In this document: in pieces, positions 12,898-63,122 of the stretch
Layout: every line of letters starts with the position of its first letter
Position numbering within the stretch: position 1 is the stretch's first letter
Source: Parietichytrium sp. I65-24A
Taxonomy: Eukaryota > Sar > Bigyra > Thraustochytrida > Thraustochytriidae
Direction: 5' to 3'
Assembly (NCBI GenBank): GCA_012862575.1
Contig: BLSF01000006.1
Coordinates: 620,001-684,000, forward strand
DNA length: 64,000 nucleotides
The notes under the pieces: model-generated
Told to the model about the DNA's origin: nothing
What the model saw: the letters and a program-made list of their open reading frames with translations, nothing else
The model's database searches: none
Program-made: the position numbers and the translations under genes

Positions 12898-15333
12898 CTA
12901 GTACATGGTATCGTCTTTGCTGTGCTCAATCGAGCTCATCATGTAGGAGTTACCTTTTGTGTAGATGGCTCCTTCCTCGGTATGATGCGAAGTTTCCTGG
13001 TGCGAGCTCTTGAGGAAGGACTCGAAGGTCTTTCCGCTGCGAACAGCCAGGATCTTTGGAACGAAGACAAGGAGAAGCACGCTAAGATCGTTCAGGAACA
13101 CCACACCAGAGCGAAGAAACATTGTGGAGCTCGGATTATCAGCAACAATGACAAGGACCGGAATGGCAATCGCGAGAACCTGGAGGTTGCTCACCATTGC
13201 AACTGCGACGTATTTGCCCTCATTTAGTGCGGTACTGACGTGCCGACACTGATACGCAAACACATTTCCGATGATCAGCAAGGAAAGATGAAACGCTCCA
13301 ATGATGCTTAGGAAAAGGGTGGACATGTCTGAGACACACTGGCCTGTGCTCTCGAGAGGATTGTTGTAGTCATCGGAGCTGGTCACCTCTCTCTCGAATC
13401 TGAGAGGGGCAACGACCTGCCACGCGGCGATGATGCCAACATCGATCAACATGCACATCCCCATGATTCCGAAAAGCTGCTGATTGGAGATGATCACCTT
13501 CTTCATCTTTTTGTTCTTGAAAATCTTCTTGATTCGCCAGATTTTGGATGCCAGACTGCTGTATGTGATGGTGAAGCCCACCGAGTAGAGCCACACCGAC
13601 AAATTGCAAGCAACGTTGGCGATCGTGTAGTCGCCGTCGAGGATGATAGTCTGGGAGGTGTTATAAAGATCAGCAGGCGCGTTCTGGTCGTCCACTGAGA
13701 GAGGGAATATCGCACTTGAGCTGATCAATGTTCCAAGGGCGATAAGACCAAGGAACTTGGTCTGGGAAGCCTTGACGACGATGTGATTCCTGTAAATTAT
13801 CGTCCAGAAAACAAAGAACAGAGCCAAAAAGACATTGATGCCAAACAAGGCGTATGAAAACGACTTGAGGTTGCCCGGCCAGTTCATGTCGTGATAAGGA
13901 GCCACAAAGTCGCTGATTGCAGCGGAGCTTTCCCCGTTATAAACCAAGTCAGACTCCAAGGTCCAAGTGCCTTCCGAGGTGTCATAGTAGCCCCGAGCGA
14001 CAACGTTCACAACATTGTCCCCTAGCAAGATATTGGAGATCTCGAAAGCTGACGACGCGGTGTTGCGGTTTCCGATGTCGTCGAATTGAACGGTGCCAGA
14101 GAGACCTTTGAAGTTGATGGACTCCTTGTTATTCCAGAACCTCGTCCCAAAGCTCTTGCCATTCACCTCACCGAGGCCAATCGAGCAAGCTGTCAACCCA
14201 ACAGCGGCGATTGCGTCAAAGCCGAAAGTTCCAACATCTTTAATCTCCAAACTGGAAGGTTGGATGTCTGTGAACATACTGGAGGTGATCTGCCAATACG
14301 AAGGTAGGAAGCTGTTGATAGAAGCCATCGTAGTAGCGGAGGTGACCGAAAAATCGCTTGCGAATGTCGTCCACTTGGCGTTGTTCGAGGTGCCACCAGC
14401 AGAGACGATGCGCAGCGACCCACTGACAGCATCGCGGACATCTCCCGTCAGACTCTCGATGGTACTGCTTGTGATGCCATCTGAAAGCATCCAGCTGGAG
14501 CCCTCCCCAAGGATTCCAAGCTTGTACGCTTCGTCCGTAACAATATCAAAGCCAGTGTTTGTTGTCACCAAAAGAATCACGCGGACTCCAGTTTTCGACA
14601 TGGCTTGTACTTGCGCGCGAATCTGAGTTTCAGAGTCGATGAAGGGGAAGGTGTACACCTCTGTCATATTGGCATTAGCGCAGTGCTCTGCAATGGCGTC
14701 CTTGAAAGCTTCGCCGTACTCATCGTTGTTGTAAATCATGGCAGCGTACTCGTATCCTTGGGAACGCCAGTATTTGCAAATCGAATAGGCCACGTCGTTA
14801 TCGGTGGGGATTGTGCGCATGAACCTTGGATAGCTGCTGGTGTCGTCAAGGTCGGCAGAGGTTGCCCAGTAGGAGATTTGAGGAATGTCCAAGACCCCAC
14901 TGATTGTGGATGTTGGGACAGAGGAGTCGCTGGTATCGGTTCCAATAATGACATCTGGATTATTTTCCACGGCCTTGAGAAGGTTGCGAATTGAAATCGT
15001 TGGATCTGAGCCGGTATCGTATACTGACACGTTCATCTGAAGATCGCAGGAGCTCAGTTCTCCAAACTGGCTGACGTACCTACTCGACCTGGTGTTGAAT
15101 TCGCGAGCAGCAAGCAGGGTCGTGAATGCGAGCATATGCTCCGTTCCACTGGTAAGAAGACAAACATTTCCGAGGTCAGGGTCCTCATAGATGGTCTTCC
15201 CGGACTCGCAGCTCGTCACCCCAGTTTCTCCGTCCGTCAGAGGAAGGAACACAGCAATCTGGATTGTGGAGTCCTGCGCGGCGGCGACTCCTGCGAGAAG
15301 GGCCAGCGCCTTTGACCATGCAGGCAGCTTCAT
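12898..15333 (-). CDS. Class C G-protein-coupled receptor, GABA-B receptor-like
   Basis: The 811-residue protein has three parts. Residues 1-19 form a signal peptide (ALALLAGVAAAQ). Residues 20-480 form a periplasmic-binding-protein-like Venus-flytrap ectodomain, opening IQIAVFLPLTDGE and containing PDVIIGTDTSDSSVPT and IPTDNDVAYSICKYW. Residues 492-765 form a seven-helix bundle of the class C (metabotropic glutamate/GABA-B) type. The short Ser/His-rich tail is cytosolic. The direct link from ectodomain to TM1, without a nine-cysteine spacer, resembles GABA-B receptors rather than glutamate receptors. The ligand is unknown and may be an amino acid or related small molecule. The protein should sit in the plasma membrane and couple to heterotrimeric G proteins. 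The ATG at 15333 gives a clean signal peptide. No introns were seen. Confidence 0.9.
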   Translation of the reverse strand: MKLPAWSKALALLAGVAAAQDSTIQIAVFLPLTDGETGVTSCESGKTIYEDPDLGNVCLLTSGTEHMLAFTTLLAAREFNTRSSRYVSQFGELSSCDLQMNVSVYDTGSDPTISIRNLLKAVENNPDVIIGTDTSDSSVPTSTISGVLDIPQISYWATSADLDDTSSYPRFMRTIPTDNDVAYSICKYWRSQGYEYAAMIYNNDEYGEAFKDAIAEHCANANMTEVYTFPFIDSETQIRAQVQAMSKTGVRVILLVTTNTGFDIVTDEAYKLGILGEGSSWMLSDGITSSTIESLTGDVRDAVSGSLRIVSAGGTSNNAKWTTFASDFSVTSATTMASINSFLPSYWQITSSMFTDIQPSSLEIKDVGTFGFDAIAAVGLTACSIGLGEVNGKSFGTRFWNNKESINFKGLSGTVQFDDIGNRNTASSAFEISNILLGDNVVNVVARGYYDTSEGTWTLESDLVYNGESSAAISDFVAPYHDMNWPGNLKSFSYALFGINVFLALFFVFWTIIYRNHIVVKASQTKFLGLIALGTLISSSAIFPLSVDDQNAPADLYNTSQTIILDGDYTIANVACNLSVWLYSVGFTITYSSLASKIWRIKKIFKNKKMKKVIISNQQLFGIMGMCMLIDVGIIAAWQVVAPLRFEREVTSSDDYNNPLESTGQCVSDMSTLFLSIIGAFHLSLLIIGNVFAYQCRHVSTALNEGKYVAVAMVSNLQVLAIAIPVLVIVADNPSSTMFLRSGVVFLNDLSVLLLVFVPKILAVRSGKTFESFLKSSHQETSHHTEEGAIYTKGNSYMMSSIEHSKDDTMY

Positions 15334-23516: not shown

Positions 23517-25934
23517 TCAAGCCTGGTTTTCGACAAAATTGAAAAATAGACAGTACCAAGCACTTGCAACTTTTACTGCAAGGTGTTGCACCGGCCCTTT
23601 TCCAGATAGTATGAATTTGGGCATCACGATATCGCTCATGGCAGTGCGATGAATCGCAAGCATCCTGCGCAGAGCAGCATCTGTGGCGACAAATTCAGGG
23701 GATTGCGAGAATTTGATCGGACAATTGTGCTGCGAGATGCTTGGAAATAGTCGGCTCAGGTCCGCTACCGATCGGGCGTGAAGTGGAACAAGATCTGATA
23801 CGGGGATGATGTGGAAGATGTTTCGTGCCGCCACAGGCTTGTAAGGTTCTGCTTGCAATTGGAACCAACGAAGATTCCAAACATCCGTCTGCCCCAATAA
23901 TAGGCTCGTTGAACTCGCTTTCCTAACATCGGACGTTCTCACATTGTAGTCCGACGCCATCGTAAGAGTCTTGTCAAACAGAGCGCTTTTTTGTAGATCA
24001 AGTCCGCCAATAATGTTGTCGATGTTGGAGGCGCCAGAAGAATCGTGGAGAAAGACGTTCATATTCCCAAAGGAATACGACTCTTCCAGCAAATGTTTCA
24101 TCCATGCCTGCTCAATTGTTGCGGTGTCGCCCATATGTCTGATGTGGGCCTTGATGCTCACATCAGGTATTTTTCGTGTTGCAGATTCGCATTCCCTCGT
24201 GAACGTTTGCACGTGCATCTTCAGGTTGTCTGGACGTACGCCTCTATGGTAGAAGAAGAAACGAAATGAATAGCGATCCTTGGCACGACAAAGAGGCGCC
24301 AACCAACGAAAGCTAGGTTTGTTCTCAAGAAAGGCGATCACGTGCACCTGGGGTCTGTCGTCTTTACGAATACGAAGTGAGCCTTCGTGCAGAGCGGATT
24401 CCAGAGAGTCATTGCCCTCCAGCCGCTGATACAAGCCTAGGGCGTTGTCAATTGCATCGTCCATGTTGAAGTACTTGTAATTAGCCAACCTTCCCACAAA
24501 ATGAACATTGTTGGCTCTTTCTTCCTCTGCTGCCAAAGCCTTGTACTGCTCAAATAAAGCGCGATTTTTAGCATCTGGGAAAGGGTAATAAGGCTCCTGA
24601 TCGAAACTCGGGTCCACAGAATACTCTCGCACGATGATACTGTTGTGCGACTCCTGATGAAATAGGTGCTTGTACTCTACCGTCCGGGTAGACTGGCCGC
24701 TAGAAAATTGTGGCGAATTCACCACAAAGCTCGGCTGGAAAGAATGCGCACTGGAGGACACCAAGGACGCAGCAAAATTGATTGAGCGGTACTGCAGCGG
24801 CTGTAGCTTTGTCCCCTTTCTGTGAATAAAGTATTGGTCGATTTGTCCCGTGAAAAAAGTCTTTTCGAACATGTGCTCCTTGAAAGTTGGCGTGCTCGCT
24901 TCAAGCTCGAAATAATCTACGTCTGTATAAACATCAATGTTTGGGTGGTCAAAAGCGCGCTCAAACCACTTGGTAAATCCCTCTTTTGGCAGCCCCTGGT
25001 GAACATCGTTTGGAAAATAGCGATCATCCCAGTCAGACTGAACGGGTATCCGAGCGAGGACCTCTGGCCCAAGGTTCTCAGGAAATACGTTCCACTGTTT
25101 CTTAGTGTATTCGCGGAATATTTTTTCGTAAAGCCTTGGACCGACCCGGCTCATTCCCACATCACGGCTGTTCTGAAAATTTGACCGACTCGTGTGATCA
25201 GCCTGTGCTCTCTCCTGCTCAAGCCAAGCTTCCATTTCTGCAACAGACCGAATCTCTGTCCCAAACAGCGAATTCACCGTGTCAATATTGACTGGAATTG
25301 CAACCAATTTAGAGTCTACTCTGCCAAGCACTCTGTGTTCATAGTGCTCCCAGTCTGAGAACCTGTGAATGTACTTCCACACATTATCCTTGTTGGTGTG
25401 GAAGAGGTGCGCTCCGTACAAGTTCATGAGTGCTTTGGTGTTCAACTCTCTAAAATCAAAGCAATTACCACCTATGTGGGGCCTGCGCTCCAGCACCAAC
25501 ACCTTGCGATCTAGGAATCGGGCATAAAGATCCGCCATGACCATCCCGGACAGTCCCGCACCTACTATTAAAACATCAAACTTGCTGAAGTCGACTTTGG
25601 AAATATCGCGAGAGTACCTTGGGTCTTTTGGCCCCATCAAGCTGCTCAAAGACAGATTGAGCTCTGCAAACTTGACAGCGGCCGTTGGATCTTTCAACTC
25701 GAAGTCGGGATCTTGCGCGGAACTCAAAGCGGTGAAAGAGGTGAGCTTCGCGGATTCCATATGTCTAGAAAACGCCACTAGACTACGAACGGCCGTTATG
25801 ACAATCAGGGTGGCAATAACAAACAGAATCTTCGGGCTCACTAGCAGCCTTCTCGCGATCTGCTGCACCGACATGCTCCAACGTTCTCTGTGTGCCTTCC
25901 ATCCCATTCCCGGGTCCACTCGCCGCCTGTCCAT
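23517..25934 (-). CDS. UDP-galactopyranose mutase with N-terminal membrane anchor and extra C-terminal domain
   Basis: From the first ATG (25934) the protein has 805 residues. Residues about 36-56 are one hydrophobic helix (ILFVIATLIVITAV), suggesting a type II membrane anchor. Residues about 118-510 form a full UDP-galactopyranose mutase. It has the FAD-binding GAGLSG, RRPHIGGNCFD, GAHLFHT, EYTKKQW, DDRYFPND, YRSINF and GRLANYKYFNMDDAI motifs. The enzyme converts UDP-galactopyranose to UDP-galactofuranose for cell-surface glycans. Bacterial and fungal mutases normally end near here and have 380-510 residues. A further 296 residues follow, with HVIAFLENKPSFRWLAPL and MNVFLHDSS. This extension faintly resembles the DUF3431 glycosyltransferase-like group. 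Two later in-frame ATGs (25907, 25874) could also start the protein. The mutase assignment is firm; the role of the extension is not known. Confidence 0.92.
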   Translation of the reverse strand: MDRRRVDPGMGWKAHRERWSMSVQQIARRLLVSPKILFVIATLIVITAVRSLVAFSRHMESAKLTSFTALSSAQDPDFELKDPTAAVKFAELNLSLSSLMGPKDPRYSRDISKVDFSKFDVLIVGAGLSGMVMADLYARFLDRKVLVLERRPHIGGNCFDFRELNTKALMNLYGAHLFHTNKDNVWKYIHRFSDWEHYEHRVLGRVDSKLVAIPVNIDTVNSLFGTEIRSVAEMEAWLEQERAQADHTSRSNFQNSRDVGMSRVGPRLYEKIFREYTKKQWNVFPENLGPEVLARIPVQSDWDDRYFPNDVHQGLPKEGFTKWFERAFDHPNIDVYTDVDYFELEASTPTFKEHMFEKTFFTGQIDQYFIHRKGTKLQPLQYRSINFAASLVSSSAHSFQPSFVVNSPQFSSGQSTRTVEYKHLFHQESHNSIIVREYSVDPSFDQEPYYPFPDAKNRALFEQYKALAAEEERANNVHFVGRLANYKYFNMDDAIDNALGLYQRLEGNDSLESALHEGSLRIRKDDRPQVHVIAFLENKPSFRWLAPLCRAKDRYSFRFFFYHRGVRPDNLKMHVQTFTRECESATRKIPDVSIKAHIRHMGDTATIEQAWMKHLLEESYSFGNMNVFLHDSSGASNIDNIIGGLDLQKSALFDKTLTMASDYNVRTSDVRKASSTSLLLGQTDVWNLRWFQLQAEPYKPVAARNIFHIIPVSDLVPLHARSVADLSRLFPSISQHNCPIKFSQSPEFVATDAALRRMLAIHRTAMSDIVMPKFILSGKGPVQHLAVKVASAWYCLFFNFVENQA

Positions 25935-58093: not shown

Positions 58094-58113
58094 TTGGGAG
58101 GTCTGCGTGAGAG

Positions 58114-59610
58114 ATGGCAGGTGGAGACGCCACGAGCAATGGAGGCGTGTCGTTGCAGAGGAGCAATTCGCTGGAGTTTGGGAACGGGTTTAAAGTGGTG
58201 GAAAAATCGGCTCGAGCGAGAGCTCAATCCGCGTCTAATGTGCTGAACGGGTCGCCGATGAACGTGATTGAAACAGATAAGGATGGCGTGGTGAGGACAG
58301 TGACTCCGGAGTTTTGCGAGTTTACTGGGTACGAGCAGAACGAGATGATTGGGAAAAAGTGCTCCTTTCTTCAGGGGAAGGAAACCGACCCTGACGATAT
58401 CCAAGAGCTCCGCGTTGCTATCAAGCAGGAACGACAAACCAGCGTGGCGATTCTGAACTTTTGCAAGGATGGAACGCCATTCTGGAATCTTCTTACGATT
58501 ATCCCAGTGTACCAGCCGGGAACACGCGCTCTGGACCACTACAAGGGAGAAATCATCAACTTTGAAATTCCTCCGCAAATGCGTAACCGCCCACGCTTCT
58601 GTGTGGACGACATCCTCGCCCTGGTGGAGGTCTATTCATCCATTCCGAGAATGTTAGGTGATAAAGACCGCCATCTTGTTCAGGGGTCCCTGCTCGAAAA
58701 TGGCGAACCTTCTATGGAAAGGGTGGTCATTCACGAGGACGAGGAGGAGGAGGATGACAGTATTCGTCGGGAGCCTACGCACGACAGCAAGAGTAACGAA
58801 AAAGGGGGTCATGCCGAGTCTTGTACATGCTGCTCGGAAAATACCACTGAGGGCGATGCGCCTTACCTCTTTAAGCACCAAAATTATCACACAAAGTTCG
58901 GATCGAAAAATATAGAGCCAAAGAGTCATTACAAGTTCGTGGCAGAAACTGGACTCCCCACCAAACACGGGCGTTTTAGGTGCCGGGCCTACAGAGATTG
59001 CGAAAGCGGGGCAGAGCCTCTTGCTATGATTGTAGGCAACATCGAGGGCAAAAGTGACGTCATCGTTCGCGTCCATGACCAATGTGTAACCTCAGAGGTA
59101 TTTGGATCGTTCAAGTGCGATTGTAAGGAGCAGTTGGACTTTGCGATGGAGTTTATTCAGGAGCACGAAGGGATGGTGCTTTATCTCCCGCAGGAAGGCC
59201 GCGGCATTGGTATTGCGAACAAGATCAATGCGTACGCAGCGCAAGAGCGCGGACTTGACACGGTTGAGGCGAACAGATTTCTTGGGCTTCCGGACGACGC
59301 GAGGCAGTACGAGTCTGTCCGCGACATACTGACGGATCTTCGCGTGAAGAGCATAAGGCTGCTCAGTAACAACCCTCGAAAATTTCGCTGCCTGGAGGAG
59401 CTCGGGATCAAGGTTTCAGACCGCCTTCCGTGTGTCGTAACTCCAAACTCGGACTATGCTATGAAGTACGTGCATTCAAAAGCACAAAAAATGGGGCACA
59501 TGATTGACATAAAATCGCTTCAATCCGGACGACTCCCGCTTTCCTCGCCGCTCTTGAATAATGAAGATCGGCCCTCTACTGCACCGGAGAAGCAAAATGA
59601 CGAAATATAG
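58114..59610 (+). CDS. LOV-like PAS domain fused to GTP cyclohydrolase II
   Basis: The 498-residue protein starts at ATG 58114. Residues about 50-155 form a LOV-type PAS domain: FCEFTGYEQNEMIGKKCSFL, then ILNFCKDGTPFWNLLTIIPV. The Cys that forms the flavin adduct in LOV photoreceptors is present (Cys83), as are two flavin-contacting Asn (115, 125) and the Gln after FL. However, the usual Asn before that Cys is Lys, the Arg after it is Ser, and the signalling Gln near the end appears as Ile. Residues 200-245 are an acidic linker. Residues about 272-470 form a GTP cyclohydrolase II with zinc Cys324, Cys335 and Cys337 (CVTSEVFGSFKCDC), Tyr374 and Arg397, opening HYKFVAETGLPT and ending KAQKMGHMID. 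GTP cyclohydrolase II catalyses the first step of riboflavin synthesis. The HDQCVTSE wording, instead of HSECLTGD, resembles the URC1-like branch linked to uracil catabolism. The exact reaction is therefore open. Confidence 0.88.
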   Translation: MAGGDATSNGGVSLQRSNSLEFGNGFKVVEKSARARAQSASNVLNGSPMNVIETDKDGVVRTVTPEFCEFTGYEQNEMIGKKCSFLQGKETDPDDIQELRVAIKQERQTSVAILNFCKDGTPFWNLLTIIPVYQPGTRALDHYKGEIINFEIPPQMRNRPRFCVDDILALVEVYSSIPRMLGDKDRHLVQGSLLENGEPSMERVVIHEDEEEEDDSIRREPTHDSKSNEKGGHAESCTCCSENTTEGDAPYLFKHQNYHTKFGSKNIEPKSHYKFVAETGLPTKHGRFRCRAYRDCESGAEPLAMIVGNIEGKSDVIVRVHDQCVTSEVFGSFKCDCKEQLDFAMEFIQEHEGMVLYLPQEGRGIGIANKINAYAAQERGLDTVEANRFLGLPDDARQYESVRDILTDLRVKSIRLLSNNPRKFRCLEELGIKVSDRLPCVVTPNSDYAMKYVHSKAQKMGHMIDIKSLQSGRLPLSSPLLNNEDRPSTAPEKQNDEI

Positions 59611-62099: not shown

Positions 62100-63122
62100 C
62101 TAGTATGGGATGGTGCCTGAGACCATGACGCGGTGCATTTCGCGACGCTCAGTATAGTCGGCATTGGCTGCGTGCTGCGTGTACCGGTTGTCCCACAGTA
62201 GTGCTTGTCCGGGCGACCAGTTGATGTCAAGGAACGACTCCGGGTGGGACATCGGCATTGCATCGATGTGGGCCAAAAGCCCAGCCAAAAGCTCGTCATC
62301 CGCACCCTCGATGCGCCGAGAAAATGCTCTATTCACAAAGAGCGATGGTCGGCCGTCGCGGTGGTCTTTGCGAATGACAGGATGTACTGCCTCAATGCCT
62401 GCCCCGTCGCTGTGGATGGACTGAAGCGAGCGAATGCAAGTCTGATTCTCGAGAGGAAGGGTGTCGAACGCGGCGCGCATGTCTAAAAAGTGTGTGTTCC
62501 CTCCGTGCGGAGGCAGCTCTCTAGAAACCAAGAACGCTGCGTATGGGGTCGCCTGGCGATAAGTCAGGTCCGAATGCCAGCCTTCACCAAATGCCACAAG
62601 GTCACTCGGCTCTTTAACTATACGTGTCACTTCGGACGGAAGCCCACCTGTTTGGGCTGCTCTGCGCATTGTAGAACCCAGTTGGTCTGCGCCCAGACCC
62701 GAAGCCGCTGCGCGTTGAACCTGCACCGGAGAGTTGAAGACTCCACGGCTGAGGTAGCTTGGTGTCCCTGAAATGGCCGGATCAACTGGTCCGATCATTT
62801 TAGACAGCTGAACTTGCACCTCAGGAGAGATTGTCTCCGAGACATTGTGCATCAACAACACAAGGTGGGTTTCTAAGGCATGCCGAAGCTGAGCCATTGT
62901 TTCGCCGTTGTCATGGAGCGCTTGAGAAGGATCAAACCCGTAAACCTCCGCGCCGAATGTCTTGCCCTCAAACGGGACAATTCGCAATTCTTTCGGGCCG
63001 TACTCCATGTACGTTGACGGATTACTTCCCAGCTCTTGTGGCAGGAAATAGTCCATCTCACCTCTTCTCTGCGAGATGGACCACATGACTGCAAGAAGCA
63101 GTCCCGCAGCCCAGTCCTTCAT
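62100..63122 (-). CDS. TauD/TfdA-family Fe(II)/2-oxoglutarate dioxygenase
   Basis: The 340-residue protein contains the iron-binding HxD pair (WHSDLTY, His183 and Asp185) and the distal His317 in NRYTQHAANADY. Arg331 in MHRVMVSG should bind the 2-oxoglutarate carboxylate. The order and spacing fit the TauD/TfdA fold, whose members hydroxylate taurine, sulfonates, aryloxyacids and other small acids. The first 20 residues (MKDWAAGLLLAVMWSISQRR) are hydrophobic and could be a signal peptide or anchor. That is unusual for the bacterial enzymes and suggests targeting. An extra loop of about 40 residues (130-170) separates the N-terminal part from the HxD motif. The substrate cannot be told. The ATG at 63122 is the first in frame. 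Confidence 0.88.
   Translation of the reverse strand: MKDWAAGLLLAVMWSISQRRGEMDYFLPQELGSNPSTYMEYGPKELRIVPFEGKTFGAEVYGFDPSQALHDNGETMAQLRHALETHLVLLMHNVSETISPEVQVQLSKMIGPVDPAISGTPSYLSRGVFNSPVQVQRAAASGLGADQLGSTMRRAAQTGGLPSEVTRIVKEPSDLVAFGEGWHSDLTYRQATPYAAFLVSRELPPHGGNTHFLDMRAAFDTLPLENQTCIRSLQSIHSDGAGIEAVHPVIRKDHRDGRPSLFVNRAFSRRIEGADDELLAGLLAHIDAMPMSHPESFLDINWSPGQALLWDNRYTQHAANADYTERREMHRVMVSGTIPY

Follow-up and report, generated by a model that had tools for sequence, protein, structure and literature searches.

A predicted LOV domain–GTP cyclohydrolase II fusion protein in the thraustochytrid Parietichytrium sp. I65-24A

Introduction

Kinases, cyclases and transcription factors are among the signaling outputs to which LOV domains are known to be attached. 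An open reading frame in the genome of Parietichytrium sp. I65-24A appears to join such a domain to GTP cyclohydrolase II (GCHII), and this locus raises the question whether the pairing is genuine and, if so, what the sensor would report to the enzyme. The frame lies on the plus strand at positions 58114..59610 of the window, the whole 64,000-nucleotide stretch of contig BLSF01000006.1 that was analysed; coordinates without a contig label refer to it.

Gene Structure and Integrity

The frame encodes 498 amino acids arranged as LOV domain, linker and GCHII, and is uninterrupted by stop codons, in agreement with the initial annotation, which had assigned both domains to one open frame. The in-frame TGA at 58108..58110 (+) fixes the start at the ATG, provided that no splicing occurs. 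In codon statistics covering the linker as well, this frame was the top-scoring one in 12 of the 13 segments; the exception (residues 281–320, inside the GCHII domain) scored 0.11 bits per codon, as compared to 0.14 in a reverse frame. The score was trained on ten other long open reading frames of the window, which include unconfirmed genes: no Pfam match was obtained for two of the seven that were scanned. All segments of the linker (residues 161–280) favor the same frame, and the two halves are therefore most likely parts of one protein. The competing explanation, that neighboring genes were fused by chance or through an assembly error, has next to no likelihood in view of the 498 codons without a stop, the location of both domains on the same strand and in the same frame, and the codon bias of one frame running through the linker. 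It was on this continuity of codon bias that a chance joining or a split gene was rejected.

The linker begins with two predicted helices following the LOV core (residues 164–180 and 183–192; 58603..58689, +), modeled by AlphaFold2 with a block pLDDT of 53–79, which are candidates for a J-alpha-like element. The remaining part (58690..58932, +) is acidic and is coding according to codon statistics. It contains a CTCC cluster with Cys237, Cys239 and Cys240 (58822–58833, +), a possible metal or redox site.

GTP Cyclohydrolase II and the Riboflavin Pathway

The C-terminal half (residues 274–466; 58933..59511, +) is a GCHII of the RibA type, predicted from its sequence to convert GTP. It matches Pfam family PF00925 with 193.2 bits (cut-off 23.3) and the RibA subfamily model NF001591 with 216.4 bits (cut-off 148), while narrowly missing the cut-off of the ribA model TIGR00505 (200.2 vs. 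205.85 bits). Sequence identity is 43% to E. coli RibA (2bz0) over the aligned enzyme half and about 49% to the best bacterial RibA among the matches listed. In the structural model, the core block of this half has pLDDT values of 90–98. The zinc site is formed by Cys324, Cys335 and Cys337 within HDQCVTSEVFGSFKCDC (59083..59124, +), and Tyr374, Asp395 and Arg397 (59233..59304, +) align with Tyr105, Asp126 and Arg128 of E. coli RibA, to which catalytic roles are assigned. The three cysteines, Asp395 and Arg397 are invariant in comparison with 12 bacterial RibA proteins, and Tyr374 is invariant in a three-sequence alignment; all residues on which the initial annotation had based its GCHII assignment (three zinc Cys, Tyr and Arg) were thus found. 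The protein shares the zinc cysteines, Tyr, Asp and Arg with the E. coli enzyme and differs from it by the fused LOV domain and by the sequence at the first zinc cysteine, HDQCVTSE instead of HSECLTGD.

The latter sequence had been taken to leave open a URC1-like role in pyrimidine catabolism, a suggestion that did not hold up. Its departure from the HS(E/Q)CxTGD motif, present in 12/12 bacterial RibA proteins compared, and the narrow miss of the TIGR00505 cut-off do favor a URC1-type or other specialised cyclohydrolase over a riboflavin enzyme. However, the NF001591 cut-off is clearly exceeded, and the URC1-like model NF005536 gives only 46.2 bits against a cut-off of 403. Moreover, six-frame, intron-blind profile searches of the genome (42.5 Mb, 172 contigs) revealed PF00925 twice, namely in the window gene and, on another contig, in a 458-codon frame (G000:C9:710294-710731; 457 aa), in which a GTP_CH_N domain (277 bits) is followed by GCHII (59 bits). 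This architecture is that of URC1-type proteins, with which the window protein has the PF00925 domain in common; GTP_CH_N was absent from the LOV-GCHII protein in the Pfam search. On the basis of the NF005536 score and the separate GTP_CH_N-GCHII gene, URC1 identity of the window protein was rejected, and a specialised cyclohydrolase of any kind is very improbable.

No second RibA-type GCHII was found in the six-frame PF00925 search, making the window gene the sole one detected by a method that, being intron-blind, could overlook a split second RibA or LOV gene. The genome also contains one locus for DHBP synthase and one for lumazine synthase, which fits riboflavin synthesis.

The LOV Domain and Its Flavin Pocket

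Residues ~49–150 (58258..58563, +) form a genuine LOV domain, as evidenced by profiles, PDB sequence matches and the predicted structure. The N-terminal half matches Pfam PAS_9 with 52 bits, and a LOV profile derived from 63 LOV domains of bacteria and archaea with 105 bits over residues 47–143; the score was again 105 bits after realignment without the row of the window protein. The best PAS-side NCBIfam model was YtvA_fam (84 bits, residues 44–134), below its whole-protein cut-off of 250. The NCBIfam photoreceptor models remained far under their whole-protein cut-offs, as expected for a protein of different architecture. The PDB sequence search yielded 142 distinct chains at E ≤ 0.001 (the best 60 of the 142 listed), headed by LOV1 of Chlamydomonas phototropin (1n9l, E 3.6e-21). 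An AlphaFold2 model of residues 22–200, computed from 64 sequences, has block pLDDT values of 90–98 over residues 52–151 (mean 78.9 for the whole piece) and contains the expected strands and helices, with Cys83 at the start of a short helix. Foldseek returned 598 PDB matches to this model at E ≤ 0.001, and 50/50 among the matches listed are LOV-bearing entries, including MrLOV (9vf8; rmsd 1.0 Å over 105 columns). Profile searches, proposed beforehand for each half as a check, place the N-terminal domain inside the LOV group and the C-terminal one in GCHII, and the LOV-type PAS assignment of the initial annotation is upheld.

Phototropin LOV1 of Chlamydomonas (1n9l) and the YtvA LOV domain share with this domain the fold, the adduct Cys, Gln87, Arg100, both Asn and the KDGTPFWN sequence. 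They differ from it in the Asn and Arg flanking the Cys and in the signaling Gln, all replaced here, and in their effector, which is a kinase or STAS domain in place of a biosynthetic enzyme.

Alignment with LOV loci shows that the pocket residues Cys83, Gln87, Arg100, Asn115 and Asn125 are all kept. Asn115 and Asn125 lie within NFCKDGTPFWN (58456..58488, +) and correspond to the Asn pair that, according to the excerpted text of PMC9098866, holds the flavin ring. The GxNCRFLQ motif reads GKKCSFLQ, so that the adduct Cys is present in the triplet Lys82-Cys83-Ser84 (58357..58365, +) while the neighboring Asn and Arg are replaced; both replacements, as well as the presence of Cys83, Asn115 and Asn125, had been read correctly at the outset. 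Among the best 80 of 559 confirmed bacterial and archaeal LOV loci, a set biased to the consensus because it was selected by LOV motifs, the position before the Cys is never Lys (0/80; Asn in 70/80, Ser in 7/80). The position after the Cys is Arg in 71/80 and Ser in 6/80 of these loci, the two ring sites are Asn in 80/80 and 79/80, and the signaling Gln is present in 74/80. In the available part of PMC3836802, N61, R63, Q66 and R79 of YtvA are described as holding the ribityl chain and phosphate. The corresponding residues here are K82, S84, Q87 and R100, and of the phosphate-side Arg pair (R63 and R79 in YtvA) only the R79 equivalent, Arg100, is therefore retained, with Ser84 at the place of R63. 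The missing Arg is not counted as excluding LOV membership, being absent also from 9/80 loci of the same best 80 of 559. Natural precedent for the loss of both Cys neighbors is provided by 2/63 aligned bacterial LOV domains (L029 and L065), which read Ser-Cys-Ser and keep the Cys, both Asn and the equivalents of Gln87 and Arg100.

The place of the signaling Gln falls within Ile147-Ile148-Asn149 (58552..58560, +), in an uncertain register. It is Ile147 if the H-I hairpin carries a one-residue insertion, or Asn149 if the insertion comprises three residues; MAFFT prefers Asn149 by means of a two-residue gap and gives Ile147 without it, and the HMMER alignment ends at or before residue 143, short of the site. 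Residues 143, 145, 147 and 149 are on one predicted strand (140–150) and would share a face, for which reason the secondary structure of the model cannot choose between the two. Of the initial statement that the Gln is replaced by Ile, the loss of Gln stands, and Ile147 is only one of two registers.

The use of this loss as an argument against photosensing is weak, given that the residue may be Asn149 and that some LOV receptors are known to do without the Gln. The excerpt of PMC9098866 mentions about 350 natural LOV receptors lacking it, mostly with Leu or Ile at the site, and a Gln-less LOV-GGDEF protein with Met there that responds to blue light. The responses of YF1 and AsLOV2 were attenuated when this site held Asn (PMC9098866). 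With these Gln-deficient receptors, termed LOV-deltaQ in the excerpted text, the window protein shares a kept Cys and an active site devoid of Gln; the tested one carries a GGDEF effector, as opposed to a cyclohydrolase.

Taken as a set, the three pocket changes (Asn to Lys82, Arg to Ser84, Gln to Ile or Asn) and the long, predictedly poorly ordered linker could indicate a relic or structural domain, whose LOV fold aids only pairing, stability or localisation and whose signaling is gone. The retention of Cys83, Gln87, Arg100, Asn115 and Asn125 argues against this explanation, as do L029 and L065, in which the Asn and Arg are likewise lost and the Cys and Gln kept; it is accordingly judged improbable.

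Possible Regulation by Light and Flavin

The preferred, tentative reading, to which a probability of about 45% is assigned, is that the window gene encodes the GCHII of the cell's riboflavin pathway with the N-terminal LOV domain as its regulator, and that the flavin-loaded LOV domain gates the enzyme, probably by blue light through Cys83. The LOV domain would bind flavin (FMN or riboflavin) via the conserved ring-binding residues, and blue light would lead to a Cys83-flavin adduct. The ensuing change could travel through the I-strand and the post-core helices (residues 164–192) to the GCHII half, coupling the two domains. There, dimer pairing or packing would probably be altered, with GTP cyclohydrolase activity turned up or down.

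The kept pocket residues Cys83, Gln87, Arg100, Asn115 and Asn125 speak for flavin photochemistry, as an unused domain would be expected to lose them. Blue-light gating is also favored by the LOV identity found at the levels of profile, PDB sequence and fold, by a RibA-type enzyme half in which every catalytic position compared is retained, and by the sole RibA-type GCHII found being accompanied by one DHBP synthase and one lumazine synthase. The lost signaling Gln does not exclude light sensing, since Gln-less LOV domains can signal (excerpt of PMC9098866). Counting against light gating are Lys82, seen in none of the best 80 of 559 LOV loci, the Arg lost at position 84, the Gln lost in either register, the low scores of the NCBIfam photoreceptor models, expected though these are for a different architecture, and the low confidence with which the post-core helices are predicted. 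The gene content of the organism also counts against it. Profile searches revealed no chlorophyll-binding proteins in the genome (0 matches), and the organism seems to be non-photosynthetic. Other candidate blue-light flavoproteins are present, as two loci of the photolyase/cryptochrome type (PF03441) were found at G000:C39:102186-102839 and G000:C33:354110-354888, the latter match being in three pieces and perhaps split by introns.

The main rival of light gating is a light-independent flavin sensor: the LOV domain would register whether it is loaded with one of the end products (riboflavin or FMN) and would inhibit GCHII, or release it, providing feedback on the first step. Replacement of the Asn by Lys82 and of the Arg by Ser84, with ring contacts kept, could reflect a changed affinity or preference. 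The R57Q mutation of miniSOG reportedly favors riboflavin, and PDB entry 7qf4 is titled as this mutant with riboflavin supplied during growth. Flavin binding by a LOV domain can fall in a range suited to sensing, as apo-YtvA-LOV has KD values of 715 nM for FMN, 351 nM for riboflavin and 224 nM for FAD, the phosphate adding no binding energy (PMC3836802, available part). On the other hand, the adduct Cys is kept, though pure ligand sensing would not need one, and the flavin-sensor reading is considered somewhat unlikely.

Gating by blue light and sensing of flavin can also hold together. Their boldest combination would be a self-referential photoreceptor enzyme. Such a protein would catalyse the first committed step towards its own chromophore and gain light sensitivity only after enough flavin is available to load its LOV domain, whereupon light and flavin would jointly set flavin synthesis; pigment and pigment synthesis would then form a closed loop within a single polypeptide. 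In this full form, the proposal is unlikely. More generally, the presence of a LOV domain on the same chain as the sole RibA-type GCHII found suggests that synthesis of the sensor's pigment may itself be under the control of light or flavin. If true, light or flavin would act directly and allosterically on vitamin and cofactor metabolism, which would explain how flavin supply could be regulated in a eukaryote without a riboswitch, and riboflavin production under light control would have a natural model to build on.

Occurrence of the Fusion Elsewhere

No GCHII was encoded in the examined flanks of the best 80 of 559 confirmed bacterial and archaeal LOV loci (0/80), and no contig with both halves was found in 17 LOV-bearing genomes, the source of 17 of these 80 loci. 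Searches of 398 genomes (cut-off 1e-8; 321 matched) and 386 genomes (cut-off 1e-30; 371 matched) gave, among the matches listed, only the enzyme half, with start positions of at least residue 231; this negative is weak, few candidates being scored per genome and LOV matches ranking under those listed. Conversely, LOV was absent from 12 RibA loci (0/12), ten of them from the 398-genome search and two from the 17 LOV-bearing genomes. None of 441 plasmid records covered >80% of the query in one place, the 15 matches listed being single pieces of the enzyme half, and none of 19 and 93 pattern stretches in viral contigs was confirmed. For the bacterial and archaeal, plasmid and viral sequences covered by these searches, the initially proposed tabulation of genomes with both halves in one protein gave none outside the source genome among the matches listed. 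A bacterial origin of the fusion was rejected on this weak negative, namely the lack of a LOV and GCHII pairing in the bacterial loci, genomes and plasmids searched.

A full-text literature search, judged by titles and excerpts, listed no paper describing a LOV-GCHII fusion, and the word cyclohydrolase does not occur in PMC12558739 and PMC10468136. Fusions of GCHII to another enzyme of its pathway are known from ochrophytes, in the form of DHBP synthase-GCHII (excerpt of PMC5462543), and a Phytophthora protein is named 'GTP cyclohydrolase II Dihydropteroate synthase' in the accessible part of PMC2705460. The window protein resembles RibBA and the ochrophyte proteins (PMC5462543, excerpt) in having GCHII inside a fused riboflavin-pathway protein. 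The partner in those is a pathway enzyme, whereas here it is a sensor, with DHBP synthase encoded by a separate gene. The sensor-effector pairing is real, built from two known domains and, as far as could be seen, undescribed.

Genomic Context

PAS_9 was detected in 12 places of the genome, including the window gene, and in a motif scan of the pieces around these matches the LOV Cys motif in PAS context was found in the window gene only. Several PAS-bearing frames of 1500–1700 codons (L008–L011 and L013–L016) are present, with TmcB-type TPR repeats in all four scanned (L008, L009, L010 and L014).

The LOV-GCHII gene is preceded by an EMC3-like gene on the opposite strand and followed by an open reading frame without Pfam match and by a gene for a TauD/TfdA-family dioxygenase (62100–63122, –). 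There is no riboflavin gene among the neighbors scanned by Pfam, and nothing therefore suggests a cluster. Elsewhere in the window, 12898–15333 (–) encodes a class C G-protein-coupled-receptor-like protein with an ANF receptor domain and 7tm_3, and 23517–25934 (–) a UDP-galactopyranose mutase-like protein that has a long N-terminal region.
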